Assembly (NCBI RefSeq): GCF_001625195.1
Contig: NC_054389.1
Location: 124,001 to 188,000, forward strand
Reading direction: 5' to 3'
Origin: Drechmeria coniospora
Taxonomy: Eukaryota; Ascomycota; Sordariomycetes; Hypocreales; Ophiocordycipitaceae
Length of the DNA: 64,000 bases
The translations under genes were made by a program, and so were the position numbers. Position 1 is the first letter of the stretch, and the number at the start of each line of letters is the position of its first letter. This document shows, in pieces, positions 20,520-58,479 of this stretch. Under the pieces are notes generated by a model. It did no database searches, was not told where the DNA came from, and worked only from the letters and a program-made list of their open reading frames with translations.

Positions 20520-23500
20520 ATGCATCTAGCACTATTTCTCATACTTATGTTCGATTTGTTTCTTTACTCTACTGCTTATAAAGACAACCCTGAATGCACA
20601 GACGGGATTGTTTATGTTGAAGTTCAACCACTCGACCTTGTGTGCTCCGGCAACGCTGCTCAAGGCAGTATTATTCGGTATCCTTTCATCTGTACAGGTT
20701 TTATCAAGAATATGCTAACAGTAGCTCTATAGATCATATACTAGTTGCCCCAACAACGTAAAAGTTACTACAATTACAATTCCAGGGCCGAAAGCGGGCA
20801 CAGCCACAATACCGCCCCCATTTGGATGCACAACTGATTGCACATCACGAATAATCATTACAACGAAAACTATTGGCGTTATAACAAGAACAACTACAGG
20901 CCCAAAAGTTGGAACTAGTTCTATTCTGCCAGAGGCAGGATGCACGGAGGATTGCTATTCATATATCATAATTACCATTACTGGAAGTGCAATAACAGAA
21001 ACAACTTTAGGGCCAGCAGCTGGGACATCAACTATTCTCCCCCCAGTAGGCTGCACTAAACATTGTGTTACGAGAATTATTATTACTATTACAGCTAGTG
21101 TTATTACAAGAACAACTTTAGGCCCTGTCTCTGGAACATCAACTATTGAACTACAACCAGGATGCACTCATTGCATTAAAACGATTGTCGTAACAATCAC
21201 AGGGAGTGCTACAACAGAAACGACATTGGGCCTAGTTCCTGGCACATCTACAATTCTCCCGCCACCAGGTTGCACTACAAACTGCATTACAAGAATTATT
21301 GTTACTACTACAGCTAGTGCTACGACGGAAACGACATTGGGTCCAGTTATTGGCACGTCGACGATTCTCCCCCCACCAGATTGTACTACAAACTGTATTA
21401 CAAGGATTATTATTACAGCTACAGGAGGTACTACGACGGAAACGACATTGGGCCCAATTCCTGGCACGTCCACAATTCTTCCTCCACCAGGTTGCACTAC
21501 AAATTGTATTACGAAAGTCATTGTTACTGTTACTAGAGGTGCTACAACGGAAACGACATTAGGTCCAGTTCCTGGCACGTCTACAATTCTCCCACTACTA
21601 GATTGCACTACAAACTGCATTACAAGAATTATTGTTACGACTACAGGAAGTGCTACGACGGAAACGACACTAGGCCCAGTTCCTGGCACATCTACAATTC
21701 TCCCGCCACCGGGTTGCACTACAAACTGCATTACAAGAATTATTGTTACGGCTACAGGAAGTGCCACAACGGAAACGACATTAGGTCCAGTTCCTGGCAC
21801 GTCTACAATACTCCCACTACTAGATTGCACTACAAATTGCATTACAAGAATTATTGTTACGACTACAGGAAGTGCTACGACGGAAACGACACTAGGCCCA
21901 GTTCCTGGCACATCTACAATTCTCCCGCCATCGGGTTGCACTACAAACTGCATTACAAGAATTATTGTTACAGCTACAGGAAGTGCCACAACGGAAACGA
22001 TATTAGGTCCAGTTCCTGGCACGTCAATAATTCTCCCCCTACCAGGTTGTACTACAAACTGTATTACAAGAATTATTGTTACAGCTACAGGAAGTGCTAT
22101 AACGGAAACGACATTGGGCCCAATTCCTGGCACGTCTACAATTCTTCCCCCACCAGGATGCACTACAGATTGTGTTACTAAAGTTATTATTACTGAATCA
22201 GGCCATCGTGAAACAATTAGAACTCCTGGTCCTGTACCTGGAACAAGCACAATCTTACCACTATCTGGGTGTATTACGGGATGCACGATAAAAGTAATCA
22301 TTACTGTTACCGGTGGAATCATTACCGACACAACAATCGGCCCAATTCCGGGTACAGTTACCATTCAACCATCAGCTGAATGTACAATAGGATGCATTAC
22401 TAGAGTGATTATTACCAGAACCGCTGGTATTCTTACTATTTTTACTCCGGGCCCGGCTGCTGGTACAACAACAATCCCGCCTGATGTTGGATGTATTGAA
22501 GATTGTACTACAAGGATAATTATTACACTTACAGGTAATTATATTACAGAATCAGCAATAGGATCTATTCCAGGAACTTCGACAATTTTTCCACCTCCCG
22601 GGTGTCTAACAGACTGTACTACAAGGGTTATTATAACGGAAACTGGTATTGTTGAAACAATCTCAACAATAGGGCCAATACCAGGCACATCAACTATTTT
22701 CCCTTCAAATGGATGCATTGTAAGCTGCACTACACGAATTATTGTTACTATAACAGGGAATGTAGTTACCGAAACTACACTTGGCCCTAAAGTAGGATCC
22801 TCGACTATATTGCCCCCCCTTGGATGTACGAGAAGTTGCGTTACAAGGATAGTTATTACTGAAACAGGCATTATGTCAACTAGTCTTACCCAAGGACCAG
22901 TACCTGGTACTATCACTATTCCTCCACCAGCTGGATGTACTACTCGCTGTACGACAATAGTTGTTATTACAGTTACGGGTGAGTTCATTACGACAACAAC
23001 CCTTGGTCCCACTCCAGGAACATCTACAATTTTACCACCACCAGGTTGCACAAGTAATTGTGTTACTAGCATTATTATTACTGTAACCGGGGGCATTATG
23101 ACAGTATTTTCCCCCGGCCCTACAGCAGGCACAACAACAATTCAGCCGCCAGCAGAGTGTATCTCTAGCTGCATAACCAGTATAGTTATTACTGTACCTG
23201 GAGGTTTCATTACCGAATCAACTCTAGGCCCTAGTCCGGGTACATCCATAATATTGCCACCTCCGGGATGTTCAAGTAACTGTATTACGAGGATTGTTGT
23301 TACTAAAACTAGTGATATTACTACAGTATTTACTACTGGTCCTACGCCTGGTATAACGACAATTCTGCCACCGCCTGGATGCATTACCTTGTGCACTGCA
23401 ACTGTTGTTATTACGGTGACTGGAGGTGTTGTTACGGAAACTACACTTGGTCCGAGTGCAGGAGCGTCGACCATCTTCCCCCCAGTCGGGTGTGTTACTG

Positions 23501-26500
23501 GTTGCACAACTAGAGTAATTATTACTGAATTAGGCGTGGTTACAACAGTAACTACTCTAGGGCCCACAGCAGGTACAAGTACAATTCCGCCACTACCTGG
23601 TTGTGTTATTAGCTGTACTGCAACAGTTATTATTACAATTACTGGAGGCATTGTTACAGAAACAACACTTGGTCCAAGTGCGGGAATTTCAACCATTTTA
23701 CCTCCCGCTGGATGTACTAGTAACTGCCTTACTACTATTGTTGTTACCGAAACGGGTGCTATTACTACTATTGTAACTCCGGGGCCTATAGCAGGTACAA
23801 CAACAGTTCTTCCATTGCCTGGATGCACGATAAGTTGTACGACTAGTGTTATAGTTACGGTTCCCGGTCAAATACTGACTGAAACCACCACTGGCCCTAC
23901 TCCTGGGACCTCAACTCTATTACTGCCGACTGGCTGTATATCCAGCTGTACAACAGTTATTATCATTACTATTACCGGAGGAGTAATTACTGAGACAACT
24001 GTAGGTCCAAGTCTAGGAATTTCAACTTTATTGCCACCTTCAGGATGTATTACCGGCTGTACTACTAGGGTTATCGTAACTATAACAGGGTTCATTGCAA
24101 CACGCACAACTCTAGGTCCAACTGCAGGTAGTACAACAATACACCCGCTACCGGGATGCGTTACTAGTTGTACAGCAACTGTTATTATTACAGTTACCGG
24201 AGGGTTCGCAACTGAAACAACCCTTGGTCCGAGTCCAGGAACTTCCACAATCCTACCACCTACAGATTGTATTTCTAATTGTATTACTACTATTGTTATT
24301 ACTGAGACTGAGACTGGTGGTATTACAACTATCTTTACTAATGGGCCTACAGCGGGTACAACTACAATTCTGCCGTCATCTGGTTGTCTGATAAGCTGTA
24401 CTACGAGTATTTTCATAACTATTACTGGTAGTGTTATTACTAGGAAAACATTAGGCCCTAGTCCTGGTACTTCATCTATCTTTCCATCATCGGGATGCAT
24501 TAGCAACTGTATTACTACTATTATTGTTACGGAAACTGGCGGTGTTACTACAATTTCTACTCCAGGTTTGATAGCTGGTACAACGACTATTTCGCCGCCA
24601 CTAGGGTGCGTAACAAACTGTACAGCTAGTGTTATTATTACAGTTACTGGTGATGTTATTACTAGAACTACATTTGGCCCAAGTGCTGGCACCTCAACAA
24701 TCCCGCCATCATCCGGGTGCATTTCTGGCTGTATTACAACAATCGTTGTTACTGAAATCGGGGGCCTCACTACCATTACTACTCATGGCTCAGTGGCTGG
24801 AACTACAACAATCTCGCCACCGCCGGGATGTGTTACGGGATGCACAACTAGCGTTATAGTAACAGTTACCGGAGAAATTGTAACAAGAACTACACTGGGT
24901 CCAAGTCTTGGTATGACAACAATAACGCCACCTCCAGGTTGCATTACTAGCTGTATCACTACTATTATTGTAACTGAAACTGGCGGAATTACTACAATTA
25001 CTACTCCTGGTTCGGTGGCTGGTACTTCTACAATTTCGCCATCACCAGGATGTGTTTCAAGTTGCATGACAAGTATTATTATTACGATTACTGGCAATAT
25101 TATTACAAGAACTACATTGGGTCCGAGCGCTGGCACGTCGACAATCCTGCCCTCTCCTGGATGCATTACAAATTGCGTTACGAGCATTATTGTTACCGTT
25201 ACCGGCGGTGTTGTAACCCAGATAACCACTGGTCCGGTGCTCGGCACATCGACCGTACCGCCGCCACCTGGATGCACTACGAATTGCATTACGAGCATTA
25301 TTGTTACCGTTACTGGCGGGGTTTCCACCCAGATAACTACTGGGCCGGTACCTGGCACGTCGACCGTGCCGCCGCCATCTGGATGCACGACGAACTGTAC
25401 TACGAATATTATCGTCACTGTTACCGGTGGCGTTACAACTATTTTCACACCAGGACCGACGCCTGGTACGTCGACCGTTCCGCCGCCGCCTGGATGCACG
25501 ACGAACTGCGTTACGAGTCTTATCGTTACTGTTACCGGAGGTGTTACGACTGTTTTTACACCCGGACCTGCGCCGGGCACATCAACTCTCCCGCCGCCTG
25601 CCGGATGCACTACTAATTGCGTTACGAGTATTATTGTTACTGTTACTGGTGGTAATATAACCAAGATAACTAATGGTCCGGTGCCCGGCACGACAACCGT
25701 TCCACCACCACCCGGATGCACGACAGACTGCATTACTAGGGTTATTATTACCGTCACCGGCGGGTTTACAACCATTACCACACCCGGACCCACGCCAGGA
25801 ACGTCGACCGTCCCGCCGCCGCCCGGATGCACTACAAACTGCGTTACGAGTATTATTGTTACCGTTCCTGGCGAAATTGTTACCCAAACGACTCTAGGTC
25901 CTATACCTGGGACGACGATAGTTCCGCCACCCCCTGGGTGCGCTTCAAACTGCGTCACGAGCATTATTGTTACCATTACTGGCGGTCTTACAACCATAAC
26001 TACGCCCGGACCGACGGCTGGCACATTGATTATCATCCCCACCACCGGGTGTACTACTGGATGTACAACGACAGTAGTAATCACAGTGCCTGGCGGCATT
26101 ACAACTGTTTTTACACCAGGGCCCACGCCGGGCACGACAACTGTCCCGCCGCCTCCGGGATGTACTGCGAATTGCATTACGAGTCTTATAGTTACAATTA
26201 CTGGTAGTATTATTACAGAAACAACTCTAGGGCCATTGCCTGGTACGACAACAATCCCGCCAGCCCCTGGGTGCGTTATAAACTGCGTTACGAGCGTAAT
26301 TGTAACTCTTACCGGCGGTCTTACTACCGTGACTACACCCGGACCGTCCGCTGGCACGTCAACAGTTCTGCCGCCCCCTGGATGCGTTACAAACTGCGTT
26401 ACGAGCGTAATTGTAACTATTACCGGCGGTCTTACTACCGTGACTACACTTGGGCCGTCGGCTGGTACATTAATAGTCCCGCCGCCCCCTGCATGCGTTA

Positions 26501-29500
26501 CAAACTGCGTTACGAGCGTAATTGTAACCATTACCGGCGGTCTTACTACCGTAACTACACTTGGGCCGTCGGCTGGCACGTCAACAGTTCCGCCGCCCCC
26601 TGGATGCGTTACAAACTGCATTACGAGCGTTATTGTTACAGTGCCTGGCGGTGCGACAACAGTTCTTACAGCCGGGCCTACACCAGGTACATCGACTGTC
26701 CCGCCAACTCCCGGATGCACTACGAATTGCGTCACGAGTATTATCGTTACTATTACTGGTAGTATTATTACGAAAACAACACTAGGGCCATTGCCCGGTA
26801 CGAGAACAATCCCGCCGGCTCCTGGATGTACTACAAATTGCGTTACGAGTATTATAGTTACAATTACTGGCAGTATTATTACAGAAACAACACTAGGGCC
26901 ATTGCCTGGCACGACAACAATCCCGCCAGCCCCTGGGTGCGTTATAAACTGCGTTACGAGCGTGATTGTAACTATTACCGGCGGTCTTACTACCGTGACT
27001 ACACCCGGACCGTCGGCCGGCACGTCAACAGTTCCGCCGCCCCCTGGATGCGTTACAAACTGCGTTACGAGCGTAATTGTAACTATTACCGGCGGTCTTA
27101 CTACCGTAACTACACCCGGGCCGTCGGCTGGCACGTCAACAGTTCCGCCGCCCCCTGGATGCGTTACAAACTGCATTACGAGCGTTATTGTTACAGTGCC
27201 TGGCGGTGCGACAACAGTTCTTACAGCCGGGCCTACACCAGGCACATCGACTGTCCCGCCAACTCCTGGATGCACTACGAATTGCGTTACGAGTATTATC
27301 GTTACTATTACTGGTAGTATTATTACAAAAACAACACTAGGGCCATTGCCCGGTACGACAACAATCCCGCCAGCCCCTGGGTGCGTTACAAACTGCGTTA
27401 CGAGCGTGATTGTAACTATTACCGGCGGTCTTACTACCGTGATAACACCCGGACCGTCGGCCGGCACGTCAACAGTTCCGCCGCCCCCTGGATGCGTTAC
27501 AAACTGCATTACGAGCGTTATTGTTACAGTGCCTGGCGGTGCGACAACAGTTCTTACAACCGGGCCTACACCAGGCACATCGACTGTCCTACCAACTCCC
27601 GGATGCACTACGAATTGCGTTACAAGTATTATCGTTACTAATACTGGTAGTATTATTACGAAAACAACGCTAGGGCCACTGCCCGGTACGATAACAATCC
27701 CGCCAGCTCCCGAATGCACTACGAATTGCGTTACGAGTATTATCGTCACTATTACTGGTGGTATTATTACGAAAACAACGATAGGGTCATTACCCGGTAC
27801 GACAACAATCCCGCCAGCTCCTGGATGCACTACGAATTGCGTTACGAGTATTATGGTTACCATTACTGGTGGTATTATTACCGAAACAATGCTAGGGCCA
27901 TTGCCTGGCACGACAACAATCCTGCCAGCCCCTGGGTGCGTTACAAACTGCGTTACGAGCGTAATTGTAACTATAACTGCCGGTCTTACTACCTTCACTA
28001 CACCCGGGCCGTCGGCTGGCACGTCAACAGTCCCGCCCCCCCCTGGATGCGTTACAAACTGCATTACGAGCGTCATCGTTACAGTGCCTGGCAGTGCAAC
28101 AACAGTTCTTACAGCCGGGCCTACACCAGGCACATCGACTGTCCCGCCAACTCCCGGATGCACTACGAATTGCGTTACAAGTATTATCGTCACGATTACT
28201 GGTAGCATTATTACGGAAACAACGCTAGGGCCATTGCCCGGTACGACAACAATTCCGCCAGCTCCTGGATGCACTACGAATTGCGTTACGAGTATTATCG
28301 TTACTATTACTGGTGATATTATTACGAAAACAACGCTAGGGCCATTGCCCGGTACGACAACAATCCCGCCAGCTCCTGAATGCACTACGAATTGCGTTAC
28401 GAGTATTATTGTTACCATTACTGGTAGTGTTATTACGAAAACAACGATAGGATCATTGCCTGGCACGACAACAATCCCGCCAGCCCCTGGGTGCGTTACA
28501 AACTGCGTTACGAGCGTAATTGTAACTATTACCGGCGGTCTTACTACCGTAACTACACTTGGGCCGTCGGCTGGCACATCAATAGTTCCGCCGCCCCCTG
28601 GATGCGTGACAAACTGCGTTACGAGTATTATCGTTACTATTACTGGTGGTATTATTACGAAAACAACGCTAGGGCCATTGCCCGGTACGACAACAATTCC
28701 GCCAGCTCCTGGATGCACTACGAATTGCGTTACGAGTATTATCGTTACTACTACTGGTGGTATTATTACGGAAACAACGCTAGGGCCATTGCCTGGCACG
28801 ACAACAATCCCGCCAGCTCCTGAATGCACTACGAATTGCGTTACGAGTATCATCGTTACTATTACTGGTGGTATTATTACGAAAACAACGATAGGGTCAT
28901 TGCCCGGTACGACAACAATTCCGCCAGCTCCTGGATGCACTACGAATTGCGTTACGAGTATTATGGTTACCATTACTGGTAGTATTATTACGAAAACAAC
29001 GATAGGGTCATTGCCTGGCACGACAACAATCCCGCCAGCCCCTGGGTGCGCTACAAACTGCGTTACGAGCGTAATTGTAACTATTACCGGCGGTCTTACT
29101 ACTGTTACTACACTTGGGCCGTCGGCTGGTACGTCAACAGTTCCGCCGCCCCCTGGATGCGTTACAAACTGCGTTACGAGTATTATCGTTACTATTACTG
29201 GTGGTATTATTACAAAAACAACGCTAGGGCCATTGCCCGGTACGACAACAATTCCGCCAGCTCCTGGATGCACTACGAATTGCGTTACGAGTATTATCAT
29301 TACTATTACTGGTGGTATTATTACAAAAACAACGCTGGGGCCATTGCCTGGCACGATAACAACCCCGCCAGCTCCCGAATGCACTACGAATTGCGTTACG
29401 AGTATTATCGTCACTATTACTGGTGGTATTATTACGAAAACAACGATAGGGTCATTGCCCGGTACGACAACAATCCCGCCAGCTCCTGGATGCACTACGA

Positions 29501-32500
29501 GTTGCGTTACGAGTATTATCATTACTATTACTGGTGGTATTATTACGAAAACAACGCTAGGGCCATTGCCTGGCACGACAACAATCCCGCCAGCTCCTGA
29601 ATGTACTACGAATTGCGTTACGAGTATTATAGTTACTATTACTGGTGGCATTATTACCGAAACAATGCTAGGGCCATTGCCTGGCACGACAACAATCCTG
29701 CCAGCCCCTGGGTGCGTTACAAACTGCGTTACGAGCGTAATTGTAACTATTACCGGCGGTCTTACTACCGTAACTACACTTGGGCCGTCGGCTGGCACAT
29801 CAATAGTCCCGCCGCCCCCTGGATGCGTTACAAACTGCGTTACGAGCGTAATTGTAACTATTACCGGCGGTCTTACTACCGTAACTACACCCGGGCCGTT
29901 GGCTGGTACGTCAACAGTTCCGCCGCCCCCTGGATGCGTTACAAACTGCGTTACGAGCGTAATTGTAACTATTACCGGCGGTCTTACTACCGTAACTACA
30001 CCCGGGCCGTTGGCTGGTACGTCAACAGTTCCGCCGCCCCCTGGATGCGTTACAAACTGCGTTACGAGCGTAATTGTAACTATTACCGGCGGTCTTACTA
30101 CCGTAACTACACCCGGGCCGTTGGCTGGTACGTCAACAGTTCCGCCGCCCCCTGGATGCGTTACAAACTGCATTACGAGCGTTATTGTTACAGTGCCTGG
30201 CGGTGCGACAACAGTTCTTACAGCCGGGCCTACACCAGGCACATCGACTGTCCTGCCAACTCCCGGATGCACTACGAATTGCGTTACGAGTATTATCGTT
30301 ACTATTACTGGTAGTATTATTACGAAAACAACGCTAGGGCCACTGCCCGGTACGACAACAATCCCGCCAGCTCCTGGATGCACTACGAATTGCGTTACGA
30401 GCGTTATTGTTACTATCACCGGCGGTCTCACAACCGTAACTACACCCGGACCGCTCGCTGGCACATCAACGGTCCTGCCACCCCCTGGATGCGTTACAAA
30501 CTGCGTTACGAGTATTATGGTTACGACTCCGTTCTCGGACATCCTCGTAATCGGGACGGTCACAGGCCCAGTTCCCGGCACCAAAACGATTCCACCACCA
30601 GCCGACTGCACCCACCCCTGCACGATCAGTATTGTCATTACTGTCACGTCGACGCAACCTCCGAATACGGTCGTCACTACAACTATTACCGGGGGGACAG
30701 TGGCCGGTACGAGTTCCATTACGCCGCCGGCGGATTGCACGCGCCCTTGCACGACAACCGTCGTTGTTACGCAGCCTGCCCATGCCGTCGTTACTTCGAC
30801 GTTCACCGGGGGTACGGTACCCGGAACGTCGACTATCACGCCACCGGTAGATTGCACACACCCTTGCACAATAAGTATTATTATTACGCAGCCCGTAGAT
30901 GCAGTCGTAACAACAACAGTTACTAGCGGAACGGTGCCCGGAACGTTGACTATTACACCGCCAGTAGATTGCACCCACCCCTGCACTACGACCGTTATAG
31001 TAATGCAGCCTCCCGATATTGTTGAAACGACGACAATTACTACCGGCACTGTTCCCGGAACATCGACGATCTCGCCACCGGCCGACTGCACACACCCCTG
31101 CACTACGAGCGTAATCGTAACGCTACCTCCTGATGTAGCCGTAACTACTACTGTAACTTCTGGAACTGTTCCCGGAACATCAACCATCCTGCCACCTACC
31201 GACTGTATACACCCCTGCACTACGAGCGTTGTAGTAATGCAGCCTCCCGATATTGTCGAAACGACGACAATCACTGCCGGTACCGTTCCCGGAACATCGA
31301 CGATCTCGCCACCGGCCGACTGCACGCACCCCTGCACTACGAGCATCATCGTAACCCAACCGCCCGATGTAGCCGTAACTACTACTATAACTTCTGGGAC
31401 TGTTCCCGGAACATCAACCATCCTACCACCCATCGACTGTACACACCCCTGCACCACGAGCGTTGTAGTAATGCAGCCTCCCGATATTGTCGAAACGACG
31501 ACAATAACTACCGGCACCGTTCCCGGAACATCGACGATCCTCCCGTCCGCTGACTGCACGCACCCCTGTACTACGACCGTTATCGTAACCCAGCCGCCCG
31601 ATATCGTCATAACAACAACAGTTACTACCGGCACCGTTCCCGGAACATTAACGATCCCGCCGTCCGCCGGCTGTATCCACCCCTGCACTACGAGAGTAGT
31701 CGTAACCCTGCCTCCTAACACAGTCGTAACTATAACGGTAACTTCTGGGACTGTTGCTAGGACTACCACCGTTTCTCCGGCTTCTGACTGTACGCACCCC
31801 TGTACGACAAGTGTTATCGTTTCACAACCCCAGGACACCGACGTCACTACGACTGTTTATGGGACTAAGGTAGGGACTACTACTATTCCCCCGGCCGCTG
31901 GTTGTACGCATCCTTGCACTACGAGCATTATTGTTACTTCGTCTGTATCACCTGCGCCTTGCCAATTCACAACCGCTACCGCACCTGCGTGTGCACCGTT
32001 GGGACTTAATGTAGACTACTATAGGAACACCTTTGTCCATGGATATGGCTGTAATAACGGGGACCCCGCTCCCCCTTGTTACGATGGACCAAATTATTAC
32101 ATCACCAAAGGTCTTACGCCTCTTGCCTCCGGTCAAACAGATACTATATTTATCCCCCAAGATGGCTATATTGGCCAGGGAAGCGCCGCCTGCGTTAAAG
32201 GGGTAGACTCGTTATATTATGGCGCCGATTACTGCCCTGGGTATGTCCGGACCGTAAATGGAAACATTATTGTAAACGGCAACAACTATACCTTGGTCTA
32301 CCGGGGGTATTATCGAGCGCCGACTACTGGACAATATTCCATCTGTGCAAGCGGCGATGCCGGACTCGCCGTCTTTTTCGGCGATGGGAATGGCGTTAAC
32401 TGCGGCCCCAATAGCGTCATCTCCAATACTTCGATGCCACTAATAGTTTCGGTAAACGGTGCAAACTTTGTTAACCCCGTTTCGTGTTCCACTGTTCGTT

Positions 32501-32646
32501 TGTTTGCAAACCAGTATTATCCTATCCGGGTTGTCTTCGGCAACAATTTTCATCAGAGCAGTGTTAGCGTTACTATTACAAGACCAGGCGGCCAGCCGAT
32601 GAACTCCAACCCTGGACTTTATTATCCTGTTGTTTGCGGATCGTAA
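20520..32646 (+). CDS. giant secreted GLEYA-type adhesin 1 (4019 aa, two exons)
   Basis: Predicted cell-surface or secreted adhesin. Exon 1 (20520-20677) encodes a signal peptide (first ~19 residues, very hydrophobic) and a Cys-containing segment with LVCSGNAAQ. A 67-nt intron follows (20678-20744; GTATCC donor, GCTAAC branch site, CTAG acceptor). Exon 2 (20745-32646) continues in the only frame open from there to the TAA. Residues ~59-3318 are about 88 repeats of 37 aa (core GPxPGTSTIxPPPGCTTNC, a CxxxC pair per unit). Residues ~3319-3788 are about 12 repeats of 39 aa with CTHPC. Residues ~3790-4019 are a GLEYA/PA14-like domain (YTLVYRGYYRAPTTGQYSIC, then FFGDGN, then a YPIRVVFGN strand). 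There is no hydrophobic C-terminal tail, so no GPI anchor is visible. A solo LTR begins 11 bp after the stop. Ligand unknown; the intron rests on sequence signals only. Confidence 0.85.
20761..30540 (+). repeat. 111-bp tandem repeat array coding for adhesin 1
   Basis: About 88 in-frame units of 37 codons. Units before ~25100 are diverged; those from ~26200 to 30500 are far more alike and fall into subtypes (a GGLTTVTTPGPSAGT type, a GSIITKTTLGPLPGT type and a PGGATTVLTAGPTPGT type) recurring in blocks, the mark of recent unequal exchange. Three consecutive units at about 29830-30160 are nearly identical. Confidence 0.9.
30541..31950 (+). repeat. 117-bp tandem repeats (CTHPC type) of adhesin 1
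   Basis: About 12 units of 39 aa with core GTVPGTSTIxPPxDCTHPC and a PPD-V-TTT linker. They differ from the preceding array but resemble the single linker units found in front of the GLEYA domains of the other two adhesins. Confidence 0.85.
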
Positions 32647-32853: not shown

Positions 32854-33357
32854 AGAAGAAGGTTTAGTAATAAATAGCTACGTAGTGGCTACTTACAAGC
32901 AACAGTATGTATGAGAGTATATGTATGGTATGATTGAATTACTGATACCTAGGTATATAAGGTTGTTAAGGTACTACTTGTTAAAATACTAGTATTTATA
33001 CTAGTAAGACTACCCAAATAGGATACTATCCTATTATTACTAGTAGCTAGTACTACTAGTAAGATGCTATACTATACTGCGAGTATTAGTAAGTATATAG
33101 AGTTAACCAATAGTATACAACATACTACTTCTCCAAACTATAACTCGGAGCGACTAGCGGCAGTACTCCTTCTGACCAAGTCACTACTACAATACGACTC
33201 ATATACGTAGTAGCCAGTCGACTACTGGAGCCAATTGGTCGGAACAACAATTGCCGCTCTCCTGATCGCTACTAGTTATTGCCAGCCCACAATACGATAC
33301 TTCTCCAGTCGCTACTAGGTATTGCCAGCCTACAGTACTACTATGGGCTATCCCAAT

Positions 33358-34152: not shown

Positions 34153-34396
34153 CCAATGCGATAGAATCAGCCAACTATCGTATAACTAAAACAGCCATCC
34201 AACTGTATAATGGCCTTAGCCAAACTATCGTTTAAGTAAAACAGCCATTTAACTGTATATTGAATTCAGCCACCCAGCTATAGTACAATAGTATCTCAGA
34301 TCAGTACAATAGTATCTCTGATCAGTACGATAGAATCTCCGGTCAAGCCGTTGAGCAATAGAAATAGCGATCTGTCCAGACCTATAAGGTGCTACT

Positions 34397-46935: not shown

Positions 46936-46952
46936 ACCCTTTGGATACTAAA

Positions 46953-48965
46953 TCAACTACAAAGGAGCGGATAAGCGCGGCCAGTAAAATCATCAGGGTT
47001 AGAGGCACTAGGTACAATAACAGCTTGGCCTGGTAGTGAAACGGTAAACCAGTTGGCAAACGGTCCGCCCCATTGGCCGTAAACGAAGCGGAAGGGGTAG
47101 GCAAAGCCGGCCGCTAAGTACTTGGAAACACATTTATTCGGGTCGAAAGCGTAAGCTGATATGAGTGGTATCGAAACCGAATCGATAAAACCTGTATCAC
47201 AATCGAACGCATTTCCATCGCCAAGGAAAAAGAATCCCCCGTTATCAGCCTGATTACAGAACGTATATATTCCAGTTGTCGGTGGTACATAATAGCCTTG
47301 ATTAACTAATGAAAAGTTATTTGTAGTTACTGCAGGGTTAAATAATGGTGCCACCATATGAAACGACATTGTGTTAGTAACCCTTTCTGCTATTGGAATT
47401 TGATTAAGATAGGTATTAGGACCGCGTCCAGTAATCGAACCAAGACCAGAAGAATTAGGTTCATTTGGATAGTAGTATGACTTGAATCCAGATGGTGAGC
47501 TAGGTGCACAAGAAGGCTGCAAGGTAGCCAGTACACACGCCCCTGTAGGAAATTCCGTAACAATAACACTAGTAGTACAGGGGTGGGTGCAGCCTGTTGC
47601 TGGTGTGACTGTTTGTGTACCGACTATGCTTCCAGGTACTGTTGTTGTAACTATTTTATCGGGAATACAGAGGAGCGGATAAGCACGGCCAGTAAAATCA
47701 TCAGGGTTAGAGGCACTAGGTGCAATAACAGCTTGGCCTGGTAGTGAAACGGTAAACCAGTTAGCAAACTGTGCTCCCCACTGGCCGTAAACGAAGCGGA
47801 AGGGGTAGGCAAAGCCGGCCGCTAAGTACTTGGAAACACATTTATTCGGGTCGAAAGCGTAAGCTGATATGAGTGGTATCGAAACCGAATCGATAAAACC
47901 TGTATCACAATCGAACGCATTTCCATCGCCAAGGAAAAAGAATCCCCCGTTATCAGCCTGATTACAGAACGTATATATTCCAGTTGTTGGTGGTACATAA
48001 TAGCCTTGATTAACCAATGAAAAGTTATTTATATTTACTGCAGGATTGAATGATGGAGCCACCATATGAAACGACATCGTAAAAGTAAGCCTTTCTGCTA
48101 TTGGAGTTTGATTAAGATACGTATTAGGACCGCGTCCAGTAATCGAACCAAGACCAGAAGAATTAGGTTCATTTGGATAGTAGTATGACTTGAATCCAGA
48201 TGGTGAGATAGGTGCACAAGAAGGCTGCAAGGTAGCAAGCACACAAGCCCCCGTAGGAAATTCAGTAACAATAACACTAGTAGTACAGGGGTGAGTACAG
48301 CCTGTTGTTGGTGGGACTGTTTGTGTACCAACTATGCTTCCAGGTACTGTTGTTGTAACTATCTTATCGGGAATACAGAGCAGCGGATAAGCACGGCCAG
48401 TAAAATCATCAGGATTAGATGCAGCAGGTACAATAACAGCTTGGCCTGGTAGTGAAACGGTAAACCAGTTGGCAAACGGTCCGCCCCATTGGCCGTAAAC
48501 GAAGCGGAAGGGGTAGGCGAAGCCGGCCTCCAAGTACTTAGAAATACATTTATTCGGGTCGAAAGCGTAAGCTGATATAAGTGGTATCGAAACCGAATCG
48601 ATAAAACCTGTATCACAATCGAACGCATTTCCATCGCCAAGGAAAAAGAATCCCCCGTTATCAGCCTGATTACAGAACGTATATATTCCAGTTGTCGGTG
48701 GTACATAATAGCCTTGATTAACTAATGAAAAGTTATTTGTAGTTACTGCAGGGTTAAATAATGGTGCCACCATATGAAACGACATTGTGTTAGTAAGCCT
48801 GTCTGCTATTGGAGTTTGATTAAGATAGCTATTAGGACCACGTCCAGTAATCGAACCGAGACCAGAAGCATTGGGTTCATTTGGATAGTAGTATGACTTG
48901 AATCCAGATGGTAAGATAGGTGCACAAGAAGGCTGCAAGGTAGCAAGTATACAAGCCCCCGTAGG
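46953..48965 (-). repeat. 708-bp tandem triplication of GLEYA domain plus linker
   Basis: CTTGAATCCAGATGGT recurs at 47481, 48189 and 48897, exactly 708 bp (236 codons) apart. Substitutions are few, so the duplications are young or kept alike by conversion. Confidence 0.92.
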
Positions 48966-51900
48966 AACGTAAATACTAGTAGTTGATGGAACGACGATAA
49001 CAACAGTACCAGTAGAGGCAGTACCGATCGGTGGTAGAGTCGTAATTGATGTTTGAGTGCCTGTACCGGTACTGGTCAATGTAGTGTATGGTCCAGTAAA
49101 TTTGGATGATGGAATAACGATAATGACAGTACCAGTAGAGTCAGTACCGCTTGGTAGTAGAGTTGTAATTAATGTTTGGGTTCCTGTACCGGTACTAGTG
49201 ATTGTAGTATATGGTGTTGTGAATGCGGATGATGGAATTGCAATAATGACAGTACCGATAGTATCAGTACCTCCTGGTGGTAGGGTCGTAATTGAAGTTT
49301 GTGTACCTGTGCCGGTACTAGTCAATGTAGTGTATGGTCCAGTAAATATGGATGATGGAATAACGATAATAACAGTACCAGTAGAGTCAGTACCGCTTGG
49401 TAGTAGGGTCGTAATTGACGTCTGGGTACCTGTACCGGTACTAGTTATTGTAGTGTATGGTCCTGTATATCTGGATGATGGAATGACAATAATAACAGTA
49501 CCAGTAGAGTCAGTACCGCTCGGTGGCAGAGTCGTAATAGACGTTTGGGTACCTGTACCAGTACTTGTAGTAGTAGTATATGGTCCAGTAAATATAATAG
49601 GACCAACGGTAACAATAATTCTCGTAGGACAGTTACCAATACATCCAGCGGATGGTAAAATAGTACTAATTCCCGATATCGGTCCCGTAGTAGATTCTGT
49701 AATAACACCTGTTGTGCTAATGGTTATAATAAGCCTTGTAGGACAGTTACCTATACATCCAGCTGAAGGCGGTACCGTACTTGTACCAGCTATTGGTCCG
49801 TAGGTGGTTTCAAGAATAAGACCGCTAGTACCGACGGTTATAATAATTCTTGTAGGGCAGTTACCGATACACCCAGAAGATGGTGGAATTGTACTGCTAC
49901 CAAGCGTTGGTCCATACGTATATTCTGTAATTGCATCTGTCGTACCGATAGTAACTAGTACTCTAGTAGGACAAAAGCCAATGCATCCGAGAGAAGGAAG
50001 TATTGTACTAGTCCCAGCCGTCGGCCCATAAGTTGATTCGGTAGTTATACCGCCAGAAGGACCAACAGTAACAATAATTCTAGTAGGACAGTTGCCAATA
50101 CATCCAGCGGATGGTAAAATAGTACTAATTCCTGATATTGGTCCTACAGTGGATTCTGTAATAACACCTGTTGTACTGATAGTTATAATAAGCCTTGTCG
50201 GACAGTTACCAGTACATCCAGCTAAAGGTGGTACAGTACTTGTACCAGCTGTTGGTCCGTAGGTGGTTTCAAGAATAACACCGCTAGTACCGACGGTTAC
50301 AATAATTCTTGTAGGGCAGTTGCCGATACACCCAGAAGATGGTGGAATTGTACTGCTACCGGGCGTTGGTCCATATGTGGATTCTGTAATTGCATCTGTC
50401 GTAACGACGGTAATTTGTATCCTAGTAGGACAAAAGCCAATACATCCTAGAGAAGGGAGTATTGTACTAGTCCCAGCCGTTGGTCCATAGGTTGATTCGG
50501 TAGTTATACCGCCAGAAGGACCGACAGTAACGATAATCCTTGTAGGGCAGTTACCAATACATCCAGCGGATGGTAAAATAGTACTAATTCCCGATGTCGG
50601 TCCTATAGTAGATTCTGTAATAACACCTGTTGTACTGATAGTTATAATAAGCCTTGTAGGACAGTTACCTGTACAACCAGCTGAAGGCGGTACCGTACTT
50701 GTACCAGCTGTTGGTCCGTAGGTGGTTTCAAGAATAAGACCACTAGTTCCGACAGTTACAATAATTTTTGTAGGGCAGTTGCCGATACACCCAGAAGATG
50801 GTGGAATTGTACTGCTACCGGGCGTTGGTCCATATGTGGATTCTGTAATTGCATCTGTCGTAACGACGGTAATTTGTATCCTAGTAGGACAAAAGCCAAT
50901 ACATCCTAGAGAAGGGAGTATTGTACTAGTCCCAGCCGTTGGTCCATAGGTTGATTCGGTAGTTATACCGCCAGAAGGACCGACAGTAACAATAATCCTT
51001 GTAGGGCAGTTACCAATACATCCAGCGGATGGTAAAATAGTACTAATTCCCGATGTCGGTCCTATAGTAGATTCTGTAATAACACCTGTTGTACTGATAG
51101 TTATAATAAGCCTTGTAGGACAGTTACCTGTACATCCAGCTGAAGGCGGTACCGTACTTGTACCAGCTGTTGGTCCGTAGGTGGTTTCAAGAATAAGACC
51201 ACTAGTTCCGACAGTTACAATAATTTTTGTAGGGCAGTTGCCAATACATCCAGAAGATGGTAGAATTGTACTAATCCCGGGCGTTGGTCCATACGTAGAT
51301 TCTGTAATTGCATCTATAGTACCGACGGTAACTAGTACCCTAGTGGGACAAAAGCCAATACATCCTAGAGAAGGGAGTATTGTACTAGTCCCAGCCGTTG
51401 GTCCATAGGTTGATTCGGTAGCTATACCGCCAGAAGGACCGACAGTAACGATAATCCTTGTAGGGCAGTTACCAATACATCCAGCGGATGGTAAAATAGT
51501 ACTAATTCCCGATGTCGGTCCTATAGTAGATTCTGTAATAACACCTGTTGTACTGATAGTTATAATAAGCCTTGTAGGACAGTTACCTGTACATCCAGCT
51601 GAAGGCGGTACCGTACTTGTACCAGCTGTTGGTCCGTAGGTGGTTTCAAGAATAAGACCACTAGTTCCGACAGTTACAATAATTTTTGTAGGGCAGTTGC
51701 CAATACATCCAGAAGATGGTAGAATTGTACTAATCCCGGGCGTTGGTCCATACGTAGATTCTGTAATTGCATCTATAGTACCGACGGTAACTAGTACCCT
51801 AGTGGGACAAAAGCCAATACATCCTAGAGAAGGGAGTATTGTACTAGTCCCAGCCGTTGGTCCATAGGTTGATTCGGTAGTTATACCGCCAGAAGGACCA

Positions 51901-54900
51901 ACAGTAACAATAATCCTCGTAGGACAGTTACCAATACATCCAGCGGATGGTAAAATAGTACTAATTCCTGGTGTCGGTCCTATAGTGGATTCTGTAATAA
52001 CACCTGTTGTACTAATAGTTATAATAAGCCTTGTCGGACAATTACCTGTACATCCAGCTGAAGGTGGTACCGTACTTGTACCAGCTGTTGGTCCATAGGT
52101 GGTTTCAAGAATAAGACCACTAGTACCGACAGTTACAATAATTCTTGTAGGGCAGTTGCCGATACATCCAGAAGATGGTGGAATTGTACTGCTGCCGGAC
52201 GTTGGTCCATATGTGGATTCTGTAATCGCATCTGTCGTACCGATAGTAACTAGTACCCTAGTAGGACAAAAGCCAATGCATCCTAGAGAAGGGAGTATTG
52301 TACTAGTCCCAGCAGTCGGGCCATAAGTTGATTCGGTAGTTATACCGCCAGAAGGACCAACAGTAACAATAATTCTCGTGGGACAATTACCAATACATCC
52401 AGTAGATGGTAAAATAGTACTAGTTCCTGATATTGGTCCTACAGTGGATTCTGTAATAACACCTATCGTACTGATAGTTATAATAAGCCTTGTAGGACAG
52501 TTACCTGTACATCCAGCTAATGGTGGTACCGTACTTGTACCAGCTGTTGGTCCGTAGGTGGTTTCAAGAATAAGACCACTAGTACCGACAGTTACAATAA
52601 TTTTTGTAGGGCAATTGCCGATACATCCAGAAGATGGTAGAATTGTACTAATCCCGGGCGTTGGTCCATACGTAGATTCTGTAATTGCATCTGTCGTACC
52701 GACGGTAACTAGTACCCTAGTAGGACAAAAGCCAATACATCCTAGAGAAGGGGGTATTGTACTAGTCCCAGCCGTTGGTCCATAGGTTGATTCGGTAGTT
52801 ATACCGCCAGAAGGACCAACAGTAACGATAATTCTCGTAGGGCAGTTACCAATACATCCAGCGAATGGTAAAATAGTACTAATTCCTGATGTCGGTCCTA
52901 TAGTAGATTCTGTAATAACACCTGTTGTACTAATAGTTATAATAAGCCTTGTAGGACAGTTACCTGTACATCCAGCTGAAGGTGGTACCGTACTGGTGCC
53001 AGCTATTGGTCCGTAGGTGGTTTCAAGAATAAGACCACTAGTTCCGATAGTTACAATAATTTTTGTAGGGCAATTGCCGATACATCCAGAAGATGGTTGA
53101 ATTGTACTGCTACCGGGCGTTGGTCCATACGTAGATTCTGTAATCGCATCTGTAGTACCGACGGTAACTAGTACTCTAGTAGGACAATAGCCAATGCATC
53201 CTAGAGAAGGGAGTATTGTACTAGTCCCAGATGTCGGTCCATAGGTTGATTCGGTAGTTATACCGCCACTTGTGATATATGGTCCAGTAAATGTAGATGA
53301 TGGAACAACCATAATGATAGTACCAGTAGAGTCAGTGCCACTCGGTGGCAGGGTCGTAATTGACGTCCGTGTACCTGTACCGGTACTAGTTATTGTAGAA
53401 TATGGTCCAGTAAATGTAGATGATGGAATAACCATAATGACAGTACCAGTAGAGTCAGTGCCAGTCGGTGGCAGGGTTGTAATTAACGTCTCTAAACCTG
53501 TACCGGTACTGATGATTGTAGTATATGGTCCAGTAAATGTAGATGATGGAATAACCATAATGACAGTACCAGTAGAGTCAGTGCCACTTGGTGGCAGGGT
53601 CGTAATTGACGTCCGTGAACCTGTACTGGTACTAGTCATTGTAGTATATGGTCCAGTAAATGTAGACGATGGAATAACCATAATAACAGTTCCAGTAGGG
53701 TCAGTGCCACTCGGTGGCATGGTTGTAATTAACGTCTCGAAACCTGTACCGGTGCTGGTCATTGTAGTATATGGTCCTGTAAATGTAGATGATGGAATAA
53801 CCATAATGACAGTACCAGTAGAGTCAGTGCCACTCGGTGGCAGGGTCGTAATTGACGTCCGTGTACCTGTACCGGTGCTAGTCATTATAGTATATGGTCC
53901 AGTAAATGTAGATGATGGAATAACAATAATGACAGTACCAGTAGAGTCAGTGCCACTCGGTAGCAGGGTCGTAATTGACGTCCGTGAACCTGTACCGGTG
54001 CTGGTCATTGTAGTATATGGTCCAGTAAATGTAGATGATGGAATAACCATAATGACAGTACCAGTAGAGTCAGTGCCACTCGGTGGCGGGGTCGTAATTG
54101 ACGTCCGTGTACCTGTACCGGTGCTGGTCATTGTAGTATATGGTCCTGTAAATGTAGATGATGGAATAACCATAATGACAGTACCAGTAGAGTCAGTGCC
54201 ACTCGGTGGCAGGGTCGTAATTGACGTCCGTGTACCTGTACCGGTGCTAGTCATTATAGTATATGGTCCAGTAAATGTAGATGATGGAATAACCATAATG
54301 ACAGTACCAGTAGAGTCAGTGCCACTCGGTGGCAGGGTCGTAATTGACGTCCGTGTACCTGTACCGGTACTTGTCACTGTAGTATATGGTCCAGTAAATG
54401 TAGACGATGGAATAACCATAATAACAGTACCAGTAGGGTCAGTGCCACTCGGTGGCAGGGTTGTAATTAACGTCTCGAAACTTGTACCGGTACTGATGAT
54501 TGTAGTATACGGTCCAGTAAATGTGGATGATGGAATAACCATAATGACAGTACCAGTAGAGTCAGTGCCACTTGGTGGCAGGGTCGTAATTGACGTCCTT
54601 GTACCTGTACCGGTACTAGTTATTGTAATATATAGTCCAGTAAAAGTAGACGATGGAATGACCACAATGACAGTACCAATAGAGTCAGTGCCACTCGGTC
54701 GTATGGTTGTAATTGACGTATCGAAACCTGTACCAGTACTGATAATTGTAGTATATGGTCCAGTAAATATAGATGATGGAATAACCATAATGACAGTACC
54801 AGTAGAGTCAGTGCCAGTCGGTACTAGGGTCGTAATTGACGTCCTTGTACCTGTACCGGTACTGGTCATTGTAGTATATGGTCCAGTAAATGTAGATGAT

Positions 54901-57900
54901 GGAACAACCATAATGATAGTACCAGTAGAGTCAGTGCCACTCGGTGGCAGGGTCGTAATTGACGTCCGTGTACCTGTACCGGTACTAGTTATTGTAGTAT
55001 ATGGTCCAGTAAATGTAGATGATGGAATAACCATAATAACAGTACCAGTAGAGTCAGTGCCACTTGGTGGTAGGGTTGTAATTAACGTCTCGAAACCTGT
55101 ACCGGTACTAATGATTGTAGTATATGGTCCAGTAAATGTGGATGATGGAATAACCATAATGACAGTACCAGTAGAGTTAGTGCCACTCGGTGGCAGGGTC
55201 GTAATTGACGTCCGTGTACCTGTACCGGTACTAGTTATTGTACTATATGGTCCAGTAAATGTAGACGATGGAATAACCATAATAACAGTTCCAGTAGGGT
55301 CAGTGCCACTCGGTGGCATGGTTGTAATTAACGTCTCGAAACCTGTACCAGTACTAATAATTGTAGTATATGGTCCAGTAAATGTAGATAATGGAATAAC
55401 CATAATGATAGTACCAGTAGAGTCAATGCCACGCGGTGGCAGGGTCGTAATTGACGTCCGTGTACCTGTACCGGTACTAGTTATTGTAGTATATGGTCCA
55501 GTAAATGTAGATGATGGAATAACCATAATAACAGTACCAGTAGGGTCAGTGCCACTCGGTGGCATGGTTGTAATTAACGTCTCGAAACCTGTACCAGTAC
55601 TGATGATTGTAGTATATGGTCCAGTAAATGTGGATGATGGTATAACCATAATAACAGTACCAGTAGAGTCAGTTCCACTCGGGGGCAGGGTCGTAATTGA
55701 CGTCCGTATACCTGTACCGGTACTAGTTATTGTAGTATATGGTCCAGTAAATGTAGATGAGGGAATAACCATAATGACAGTACCAGTAGAGTCAGTGCCA
55801 CTCGGTGGCAGGGTTGTAATTGACGTCCTTGTACCTGTACCGGTACTAATCATTGTAGTATATGGTCCAGTAAATGTAGATGAGGGAATAACCATAATAA
55901 CAGTACCAGTAGACCCAGTGCCACTCGGTGGCAGGGTCGTAATTAACGTCCGTGTACCTGTACCGGTACTAGTTATTGTAGTATATGGTCCAGTAAATGT
56001 GGATAATGGAATAACCATAATGACAGTACCAGTAGGGTCAGTGCCAATTGGTGGCAGGGTTGTAATCAACGTCTCGAAACCTGTACCAGTACTGATGATT
56101 GTAGTATATGGTCCAGTGAATGTGTATGATGGAATTACCATAATGATTGTACCAGTAGAGTCAGTGCCACTCGGTGGCAGGGTCGTAATTGACGTCCGTA
56201 AACCTGTACCGGTACTGGTTATTGTAGTATATGGTCCAGTAGATCTAGATGATGGAATAACCATAATGACAGTACCAGTAGAGTCAGTGCCACTTGGTGG
56301 CAGGGTTGTAATTAACGTCTCGAAACCTGTACCAGTACTGATGATTGTAGTATATGGTCCTGTAAATATAGATAAAGGAATAATAACAATAATAGTACCA
56401 GTAGAGTCAGTACCGCTTGGTAGTAGGGTCGTAATTGACGTCTGGGAACCTGCGCCGGTACTGGTCATTGTAGTGTACGGTCCTGTAAATGTGGATGATG
56501 GAATAAAAATAATGATTGTACCACTAGGATCAGTACCGCTCGGTGGTAGGGTCGTACTTGACGTTTGTGTCCCTGTGCCAGTACTTGTAGTAGTAGTATA
56601 TGGTCCTGTAAATGTAGATAATGGAATAATAACAATAACAGTACCACTAGGGTCAGTACCGCTTGGTGGCAGGGTCTTAATTGACGTTTGGACACCTTTA
56701 GCGGTACTAGTTATTGTAGTGTATGGTCCAGTAAATTTGGATGATGGAATAACAACAATAACAGTACCACTGGGATCAGTACCTCTCGGTGGCAGGGTCG
56801 TAATTGACGTTTGGGTTCCTGTGCCGGTACTTGTAGTTGTAGTATATGGTCCAGTAAATGTGGATGATGGAATAACGATAATGACAGTACCAGTAGAGTC
56901 AGTACCGCTTGGTGGTAGGGTTGTAAATGACGTCTGGGTACCTATGCCGGTACTGGTAATTGTGGTGTATGGTCCTGTAAATGTAGATAAAGGAATAACG
57001 AGGATTACAGTACCGATTGTACTGGTTCCACTTGGTAGTAAAGTGGCAAGTGAGGTTTGCCATCCCGTGCCGGTACTGGTTGTTGTGGTATACGGACCTG
57101 TAAATGCTAATGAAGGCAGAATTACAATTACTGTACCGGTAGAGTTAGTACCGCTTGGTGGTAGAGTAGTATATAATGTTTGCAATCCCGTGCCGGTACT
57201 AGTTATTGTGGTATATGGTCCCGTAAATGATGTCGATGGGACGATGACAATCGCTGTTCCTGTCAGGTCCGTCCCACTTGGTATTATGAACTGGGTAGAA
57301 GTTTGATAATCTGTGCCAGTACTCGTAGTAGTTGCATATGGTCCAGTAAATAATGGCTTAATAATGATAATGGTACCGGTAGGGTCACCTGCAATGGGCG
57401 GCTGGGTTATGGTCAATGTCTTGGGGCCTGTTCCTGTTGTTGTAATTGTCGTAAACGGGCCTGTAAAGCTCGGGCCGGGTATTACGATAACAACTGTCCC
57501 TGTTAGATCAGTGCCATCAGGGGCGATAGAGATGGTAGAAGTAGCTGATCCAGTCCCGAAGCTGGTCATTGTCGTAAATGGTCCTGTAAAGGTCGGACTA
57601 GGTACCACGACAATGATTGTTCCCGAGACATCTGTTGCCGGAGGAGGAACTGATATGGTATAGATTCGAGACCCCAACCCAGTACTCGTAATTGTAACGA
57701 ATCGCCCGGCAAATGTCGTTCTAGGTCGAATGATAATGACCGTCCCGGTTAGGTCGGTACCAGAAGGACGAAGTGATATTGTTGAGGTCCCTAATGCCGT
57801 GCCGAAACTAGTAATTGTTGTGTAGGGACCCGTAAAAGTCGGACTAGGCCTCACGATGATAATCGTGCCGATTAAATCTGTGCCGGATGGTGGCAGCGAT

Positions 57901-58479
57901 ACGGTAGAGGTACCTTCTCCTGTGCCGAAGCTAGTGATTGTTGTAAAGGGTCCGGTAAATATCGTACTTGGTCTGACGATAATGACCGTGCCAGTCAAGT
58001 CCGTTCCAGATGGTGGCAAGGATATCGTCGATGTGGTGCCTAATGCTGTGCCGAAACTTGTTATTGTCGTAAATGGACCGGTAAACGTTGGACTTGGTTG
58101 AACTATAATTATCGTTCCTGTCAAATCCGTACCAGATGGGGGTAGCGAAATGGTAGAGGTGCCTGTTGCTGTGCCGAACCTGGTTATTGTTGTAAAGGGC
58201 CCTGTAAAGCCTGCATCACTATTTCCTGAACTTTTTGGCTCGATTTCTAAGCACGATTTATATGTTCTAATAACATATCGTTATCAAGTCTGCTCATAAT
58301 TGTTTTGGTATTGCATCTTACCGAACTTGTCTTGTCTGAGCTACAGTTCCAGAGCATACCATTTCAGTCGGTGCATGTTCCACAACTACTATCCAATCTT
58401 GACAGTCACCATTTGCATGTTCAAATATGCCTAAAAACGCAATAAAGATTGCAAAGTGCCATAATGTTATGAGGTTCAT
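46953..58479 (-). CDS. giant secreted GLEYA-type adhesin 3 (3823 aa, two exons)
   Basis: Exon 1 (58322-58479, 158 nt) encodes a signal peptide (about 24 residues) and a segment VVVEHAP...MVCSGTVAQ that aligns with exon 1 of adhesin 1, which has the same length and phase. A 55-nt intron follows (58267-58321; GTAAGA donor, TGATAAC branch site, ATTAG acceptor). Exon 2 runs to the stop at 46953. Residues ~65-1717 are about 40 repeats of 41 aa (FTGPYTTITSTGTG core, similar to yeast flocculin repeats). Residues 1718-2943 are 32 Cys-bearing units (GPTAGTSTILPS.GCIGNCP) in eight 153-aa cycles. Residues 2943-3153 are five more 41-aa units. Three GLEYA-like domains follow (~3154-3355, 3394-3591, 3629-3823), separated by CTHPCTT linkers; each has FSLVNQGYYVPPTTGIYTFC and FFLGDGNAFDC. 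No GPI tail is visible. TATA at 58593-58600. Confidence 0.87.
48966..49596 (-). repeat. 123-bp (41-codon) repeats, distal block of adhesin 3
   Basis: Five units of the flocculin-like FTGPYTT type between the 459-bp array and the GLEYA domains. Confidence 0.85.
49597..53275 (-). repeat. 459-bp higher-order repeat array, eight cycles
   Basis: Equivalent sites fall at 49804, 50263, 50722, 51181, 51640, 52099 and 52558, each exactly 459 bp apart. One cycle is four unlike units (38, 38, 38 and 39 codons) that keep their order throughout. The block is 3679 bp, eight cycles. Confidence 0.93.
53276..58230 (-). repeat. 123-bp (41-codon) repeats, proximal block of adhesin 3
   Basis: About 40 units. 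Units near 53.3-56.4 kb are nearly identical and alternate between subtypes (TRTSITTLPPSG and FETLITT), while those near the N-terminus are diverged, as in adhesin 1. Confidence 0.9.

Follow-up and report, generated by a model that had tools for sequence, protein, structure and literature searches.

Adhesin genes of the yeast Flo and Epa families are subtelomeric, and a second design, with a C-terminal GLEYA or DIPSY domain, was reportedly described in fission yeast by Linder and Gustafsson in 2008. Yeast flocculins combine an N-terminal head with a glycosylphosphatidylinositol (GPI) anchor, whereas the fission-yeast adhesins carry GLEYA at the C-terminus and have no GPI signal (PMC13147542, PMC6308950), and Flo flocculins have been redefined by an N-terminal PA14/GLEYA domain together with flocculin repeats PF00624 or PF13928 (PMC8621652). 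In Pneumocystis jirovecii, the subtelomeric Msg surface-protein genes have been reported to be mosaics formed by ectopic recombination (PMC5676039). Here we describe three genes, A, B and C, in a 64,000-nucleotide stretch of the Drechmeria coniospora genome, hereafter the window (C1:124001-188000, in a 32.83 Mb assembly of 28 contigs). We put the probability at a little under three in four that they belong to a mosaic family, concentrated near chromosome ends, of giant secreted proteins of adhesin-like design whose parts have been recombined within repeat arrays.

Drechmeria coniospora infects nematodes once its conidia stick to the cuticle; its genome was annotated with nine GLEYA proteins, ten ALS genes and few, weakly expressed lectins, several surface-protein candidates were offered, and each chromosome was found to be bordered by some 0.5 Mb of repeats specific to the species (PMC4792172). 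In Hirsutella minnesotensis, a related endoparasite, GLEYA proteins are reportedly contracted relative to adhesive trapping fungi (PMC4255773), and expansion is therefore not general for endoparasites. The family described below, with about 58 N-module and 39 GLEYA loci, belongs to a model pathogen of C. elegans. Feature coordinates are window positions throughout, and other loci are named by contig and kb position (C3:9661k, for example, lies on contig C3).

Anatomy of the three window genes

The initial annotation had placed three genes of one plan in this region, two of them encoding about 4000 aa; the coordinates proved exact, with the exon-intron order and the arrays as it had described them. 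Each gene opens with an exon that holds a signal peptide and a conserved N-terminal segment (the N-module) and ends in phase 2, followed by a predicted intron of 53-55 nt and a single long exon. Protein lengths below exclude the stop codon, and the introns are sequence predictions.

20520-32646 (+): gene A, whole span
20520-20677 (+): gene A exon 1, 158 nt with ATG at 20520; signal peptide and N-module (GIVYVEVQPLDLVCSGN...R)
20678-20732 (+): gene A predicted phase-2 intron, 55 nt
20733-32646 (+): gene A exon 2, open through to the stop codon; spliced protein 4023 aa
20972-30524 (+): gene A Cys-Thr repeat array, 37-aa units of CxxxC type
30721-31820 (+): gene A C(T/I)HPCTT array, 39-aa units
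31945-32643 (+): gene A C-terminal GLEYA/PA14 head; PF10528 match 32287-32580, calcium loop D-A
38728-36351 (-): gene B, whole span
38553-38728 (-): gene B exon 1, 176 nt; signal peptide and N-module of type III
38500-38552 (-): gene B predicted phase-2 intron, 53 nt
36351-38499 (-): gene B exon 2; spliced protein 774 aa
37291-38305 (-): gene B repeat arrays, 40- and 44-aa units
36354-37040 (-): gene B GLEYA head; PF10528 match 36411-36701, calcium loop D-N, CBL2 Asn retained
58479-46953 (-): gene C, whole span
58322-58479 (-): gene C exon 1, 158 nt; signal peptide and N-module of type IV
58267-58321 (-): gene C predicted phase-2 intron, 55 nt
46953-58266 (-): gene C exon 2; spliced protein 3823 aa
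53276-58208 (-): gene C stalk block 1, ALS-like repeats (PF05792), 41 aa
53266-53269 (-): gene C probable mosaic junction, in frame within a repeat unit
49599-53268 (-): gene C stalk block 2, Cys-repeat array; 153-aa super-unit, 8 copies, 94% matches
48984-49595 (-): gene C stalk block 3, where ALS-like repeats return, 41 aa
48375-48962 (-): gene C GLEYA head copy 1; match 48456-48731, calcium loop D-N/Q
47667-48254 (-): gene C GLEYA head copy 2; match 47751-48023
46959-47546 (-): gene C GLEYA head copy 3; match 47040-47315

Threonine makes up 26, 17 and 23% of the spliced A, B and C proteins, and the main array units (111, 114, 117, 120, 123 and 132 bp) and super-units (459 bp) are all divisible by three. 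PF10528 (GLEYA) scored 49.7, 58.3 and 141.7 bits in A, B and C (one, one and three copies; Pfam cut-off 26.2) and PF07691 (PA14) was likewise above its cut-off in all three, which bears out the C-terminal domains previously proposed; signal peptide, repeats and genuine GLEYA/PA14 domains stand in the order of an adhesin-like design. The motif that had been read as a CT(H/R)PCTT linker is present in every gene (12 copies in A, one in B and two in C, both of these between GLEYA domains), but in gene A it marks a 39-aa repeat class and not a linker. Peak 12-residue hydropathy, on which the signal-peptide and GPI calls rest, is 2.2-2.7 at the N-termini and 0.3-1.5 in the C-tails; the proteins stop directly past the head without a strongly hydrophobic tail, and yeast-type GPI anchoring is therefore not indicated. 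A model of five gene A repeats made with AlphaFold was discarded (predicted local distance difference test, pLDDT, 37.6).

With a signal peptide, repeats, C-terminal GLEYA and no GPI-like tail, the three genes resemble the fission-yeast GLEYA/DIPSY adhesins; they differ in belonging to a filamentous ascomycete with 39 GLEYA loci, 20 of them in open frames of at least 3000 aa, and in the intron-split N-module, the Cys-rich stalk repeats, the DUF6923 head and the 5'/3' reassortment of the Drechmeria family. The analogy with yeast adhesins drawn in the initial annotation holds for Flo (PA14) and Epa (GLEYA) in head fold, Pfam family, repeat stalk and subtelomeric position, but not in architecture: in A, B and C the head is C-terminal, there is no GPI-like tail, the calcium and sugar signature is mostly lost, and flocculin repeats PF00624 and PF13928 are absent from the Pfam matches of the three exon-2 proteins at E 0.1 (a genome search with PF00624 was empty, with its controls empty as well). 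Gene C shares with Candida Als proteins the ALS repeat PF05792 only (24 matching stretches), which the published count of ten ALS genes may reflect; its head is C-terminal GLEYA, and the Als N-terminal Ig-like domain PF11766 gave no match at E 0.1 in the exon-2 proteins of A, B and C, exon 1 amounting to 52-58 residues. The Drechmeria family is subtelomeric and incongruent in its gene parts like the Msg superfamily, but the proteins are unrelated, and each Msg family forms its mosaics internally, while in Drechmeria a single N-module family is combined with heads that are not related to one another. Against the GLEYA proteins already published for this species, with the same domain, the count is 39 loci instead of nine. 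Taken singly, adhesins with a C-terminal GLEYA domain, adhesin families near chromosome ends and mosaic surface genes are all on record; what is new is their combination with an N-module unknown to Pfam, at least two unrelated heads on a single cassette family and a mostly lost calcium signature, and we found no description of that combination in the literature searched, subscription papers lying mostly outside it.

Genes A, B and C are real coding genes and their long frames are not due to chance, because the ratio of nonsynonymous to synonymous changes per site (dN/dS) between adjacent array units, counting only pairs at least 50-55% identical, is 0.15-0.43 in all eight array stretches compared. 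For gene A it is 0.28 (73 unit pairs, from 21200 on) and 0.15 in the 39-aa units; for gene C, 0.43 and 0.18 in the main arrays and 0.16 and 0.22 in short arrays (2 and 3 pairs); for gene B, 0.21 (4 pairs) and 0.31 (1 pair). Third codon positions take the largest share of the differences between neighbouring units. Across the family, 13 of 15 GLEYA pairs were computable, and every one gave a dN/dS below 1 (0.12-0.78). The opposite strand of the three genes also has long open frames, up to 2357 aa, probably a by-product of repeat composition.

The family and its chromosomal position

A profile search of the contigs found 64 GLEYA matches, which we grouped into 39 loci, the three window genes among them; the number of matches is a lower bound, and only one of 14 control genomes gave any match, none above the cut-off. 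The longest open frame reaches 6916 aa. The three chromosomes carry 38 of these loci; 30 are no more than 650 kb from an end, against 12% expected (binomial 4e-21, a guide only, clustered loci not being independent), and 27 no more than 500 kb, which fits the comparison with subtelomeric yeast families first drawn. "End" here means contig end only, because the search in which the telomere repeat (TTAGGG)4 gave no genome match skips simple repeats. The open frames of the GLEYA loci sum to about 0.31 Mb, and these genes therefore account for about a tenth, not most, of the published species-specific repeats.

The N-module extends the family beyond GLEYA. A fixed exon-intron rule fitted 18 of the 20 genes with a readable 5' end; the reading of C1:582507, whose N-terminus differs, was judged spurious. 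In the other 17 the signal peptide comes with a loosely conserved V-x-V-E ... C-S-G-T ... R pattern, the intron is in phase 2, and there is an R-T-Y-T-like entry motif; one Cys is invariant and one Glu nearly so, and none of their exon-1 peptides matched Pfam at E 0.1. The rule missed C3:9640k and C3:9683k, where the module was recognised by eye and one gene seems to use a GC donor. Queries of four types at E 0.01 hit 31, 12, 9 and 7 places, which make 56 unique loci (five, gene A among them, rest on E between 0.001 and 0.01); one is on an unplaced contig, and 44 of the 55 on chromosomes fall within 650 kb of an end. With C3:7333k and C3:7348k, read directly and missed by the queries, the total is about 58. 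Two matches in mid-chromosome, C2:5143994 and C2:5147285, have equal scores and opposite orientation 3.3 kb apart, perhaps an inverted duplication.

Behind the 56 modules stand 29 GLEYA heads, seven DUF6923 heads (PF21959), two with both and 18 with none found, each head being assigned by distance to the nearest module on the same strand within 24 kb; contig C7 and its two GLEYA matches did not enter this assignment. At C1:12254k (5508 aa) and C3:311k (4284 aa) the pairing is confirmed by equal frame lengths. No module match was obtained for 15 head loci (seven GLEYA, eight DUF6923), although C3:7333k and C3:7348k, among the former, carry the module by reading. When the C-terminal ends of three module genes lacking GLEYA were read, two proved to be DUF6923 (1.9e-24 and 8.9e-9), and the final approximately 250 residues of the third, C2:6968k (L048), had no Pfam match at E 0.1 and are a possible further head type. 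Genome-wide, DUF6923 gave 37 matches, three below the cut-off, and two of 14 control genomes matched, one above it; the domain goes unmentioned in the literature searched. An N-module and five DUF6923 copies share the single open frame of C1:12254k, ALS-like repeats and DUF6923 occur together in frames of 4215, 3512 and 2788 aa, and GLEYA heads in the family have one to four domains.

Some members are incomplete or displaced. The small unplaced contigs C7 (L045) and C10 duplicate parts of C3:7348k and other members, and the GLEYA letters on C7 are identical to those of C3:7348k, as duplicated or unassembled copies. Upstream of the long GLEYA frames C3:9354k and C3:9738k (L037 and L044), repeat coding goes on in another frame, either through decay or through assembly error. 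At L017 and L021, truncated GLEYA genes adjoin a long-terminal-repeat-like sequence common to both places, possibly retroelement damage.

Discordant histories of N-modules, stalks and heads

N-module and head could be compared in 19 of the 39 GLEYA loci (the 20 readable 5' ends minus C1:582507; for C1:8188 and C3:600k the head was taken as the region surrounding the match instead of running to the stop). Over 171 pairs of these genes, N-module identity is uncorrelated with head identity (Mantel r 0.043, reached in 1268 of 5000 permutations). The clearest case is C3:9661k, which shares 89% of its N-module but 38% of its head with C1:7805k, and 93% of its head but 20% of its N-module with C3:9640k; C3:9683k and C2:193k likewise are 77% identical in the head and 31% in the N-module. 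Trees of the two parts disagree, with approximately unbiased (AU) tests strongly rejecting six of seven groupings and weakly rejecting one; the groups were chosen after the identity comparison and long branches were flagged, so the p-values are qualitative, and three constrained trees about 490-505 log units worse suggest poor constrained searches. N-types I, II and III, moreover, also precede the unrelated DUF6923 head.

At the DNA level, the alignment of C3:9661k with C1:7805k begins 612 bp upstream of the exon-2 frame start and continues to 1727 bp past it, and that with C3:9640k extends from +64 to 112 bp beyond the frame end; the 5' unit therefore brings upstream DNA with it and the 3' unit a little 3' flank. 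Such alignments place the switches in homology within repeat arrays. Gene C is a probable fusion near 53,269: block 1 matches C3:9396k at about 71% DNA identity in one alignment that begins 620 bp upstream of the exon-2 frame and stops at +5011, and the alignment with C2:168k starts at +5014. The former is a nearly pure ALS-like stalk, and the latter consists mostly of Cys repeats with four GLEYA copies. The variability postulated in the initial annotation gains indirect support here, as diversification through mosaicism between paralogues.

The proposed mosaic family would thus be built from a 5' cassette (upstream DNA, signal peptide and the conserved N-module with its one intron), a stalk of Thr-rich tandem units (Cys-type, C(T/I)HPCTT-type or ALS-like) and a C-terminal head, which may consist of GLEYA/PA14 domains (one to four), of DUF6923 repeats, of the two together or of something else. 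Exchange within the arrays would have joined 5' cassettes to differing heads and would alter stalk length as well. The product is likely a very long O-glycosylated wall fibre holding a beta-sandwich head far from the cell; attachment would be by the N-terminal or stalk part, because a C-terminal GPI-like tail is absent, and beta-prone segments, in excess in A and C and not in B, could cluster the heads. Display on the wall, adhesion, ligand binding and a role on the host would follow from this design. Cassettes, stalks and unrelated heads are traceable in sequence, and the Swe and Dan strains make the recombination model directly testable.

We hold more tentatively, at somewhat below even odds, that such combinatorial head-swapping joins any 5' cassette to any head (re-made GLEYA pockets, DUF6923 or unnamed ones), so that giant surface proteins with new ligand specificities continue to arise and a new head can come under an active promoter, with part of the repertoire hidden as chromosome ends filed under species-specific repeats.

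Ligand signature and alternative explanations

The heads of genes B and C match in sequence the solved domains of Epa1, Epa6, Epa9 and flocculins, gene B also that of Cea1. The gene B head was also modelled, with low confidence (pLDDT 57, predicted template-modelling score 0.62); in the fold ranking, the one use made of this model, Cea1A, KpFlo2, Flo1/Flo5 and Epa come out among the best. Neither head had a match at 1e-3 among 5.8 billion proteins; the window's own proteins are missing there too, and the collection seems to be without such fungal genes and hence uninformative on relatives.

Calcium-site letters, at places that we take to be fixed by alignment to solved domains and by Epa1 numbering, were read in 45 of the 64 GLEYA matches, 41 of them readable at both places. 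The calcium pair is DN in 31 domains, DD in nine, DA in three, NN in one and EY in one. Epa lectins bind calcium through a DD pair and an Asn, and their pocket is completed by a W-R signature (PMC6308950). DD with Asn is complete in seven of the 41 domains and in none of the five in the window (D-A-N in gene A, D-N-N in gene B, D-N-Q in all three copies of gene C), and Arg was found at the next place of the W-R signature in 0 of 41. These letters suggest that most heads read have left the known calcium chemistry while fold and constraint are kept, which points to other ligands or a structural role; the glycan binding that had been expected of the window heads is not borne out by the signature, and their fold is the feature that may still suggest it. 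One GLEYA gene far from the ends, C2:4249k, has the canonical calcium letters with a weak N-module match (0.0097) and may resemble the family founder.

Several observations weigh against recombined adhesin-like parts, and we set them out below with the alternatives they favour. The likeliest of these, which we nevertheless consider improbable, is that the proteins mainly form a self-assembling matrix or amyloid-like glue and are not ligand-specific adhesins, the GLEYA head being structural and its sugar binding lost. The rarity of a complete DD-N signature and the missing Arg of the W-R signature would fit, as would beta-prone runs above the shuffle maximum in A (59 against 23) and C (38 against 17), but gene B has no such excess (5, shuffle maximum 5), the heads keep their fold under purifying selection, and they are diverse and variously combined, which a pure glue would not need.

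An ordinary GLEYA family, with descent after duplication and changing array length but no systematic 5'/3' exchange, is improbable. It would account for the concordant pairs C3:7333k/C3:7348k (N-module 87%, GLEYA 88%) and C1:2560k/C2:403k (mutual best GLEYA match at 54%, N-module 76%), and N-type I as one GLEYA clade is the grouping rejected only weakly (p 0.028). Gene C alone is no proof of exchange, because its junction is also the border of two repeat classes and C2:168k, like others, begins with a few ALS-like units before its Cys repeats. A strain comparison also found no repeat signature at chromosome-end exchanges (PMC7500977), and the idea that these arrays explain the Dan1/Dan2 end exchanges was dropped on that account. 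Ordinary descent is nevertheless hard to square with the lack of correlation between N-module and head, with the reversed partners of C3:9661k, or with unrelated DUF6923 heads behind three N-types.

We give equally little credence to a relic family, in which the subtelomeric repeats would for the most part be silent or in decay and serve little function today. One of the nine published GLEYA genes and none of the ten ALS genes are highly expressed, expression is low for most species-specific proteins, and another adhesin candidate outside the family, the Mad1 orthologue DCS_00989, is highly expressed (PMC4792172); much of the family may therefore be silent or not the main adhesin. Broken or fragmentary members exist (C2:40k, C2:437k, C2:9692k and C1:12148k) with retroelement pieces nearby, and the TpA/ApT index is high in this compartment (1.34-1.44 for A, B and C, 1.25-1.52 for four flanking AT-rich stretches, compared with 0.62 for 1-14 kb), although we draw no conclusion on repeat-induced point mutation from it because Thr-rich codons bias the index. 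Against decay stand the 20 loci with long open frames and the dN/dS values below 1. The highly expressed GLEYA gene, DCS_00041, is up-regulated in infection (PMC4792172); gene B was considered as a candidate for it from gene numbering, and it may or may not be one of A, B and C.

Finally, similar arrays might have let the assembler join the 5' part of one gene to the 3' part of another. Assemblers normally do not merge DNA about 70-82% identical, and that is the identity of the short type III genes where their DNA aligns; four of these (exon-2 frames of 791-1048 aa, about 3 kb) have differing heads (36-38% in three pairs). With five short type III genes whose ends are readable, assembly chimeras are therefore very improbable as a general cause, even though arrays are long and alike (up to 94% matches), contigs C7 and C10 duplicate family parts, and tandem repeats are known to be hard in D. 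coniospora (PMC7500977).

Other content of the window

A GC-rich island holds, at 161-1351 (+), a terpene-cyclase-like match to the TRI5 trichodiene-synthase family (PF06330, 3.6e-23). It is followed by a platelet-activating factor (PAF) acetylhydrolase isoform II-like gene at 7476-9080 (+) (PF03403, 1.5e-36), a GC-rich open frame of 848 aa at 9150-11696 (-) with no Pfam match at E 0.01, and a subtilase S8 at 12129-13334 (-) (PF00082, 1.2e-39), a class often tied to cuticle breakdown. A Copia-like reverse-transcriptase/RNase H frame, recognised by eye and without a Pfam match, lies at 44808-46436 (+), and an 87-88% copy of it downstream of gene B at 35575-36129 (-); Copia-like pieces of 54-392 bp occur in nine of the 24 other adhesin stretches fetched. 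AT-rich dispersed repeats, 80-89% alike, flank gene A on both sides (17046-17416, 32977-33698 and 34385-35287) and are possible recombination substrates.

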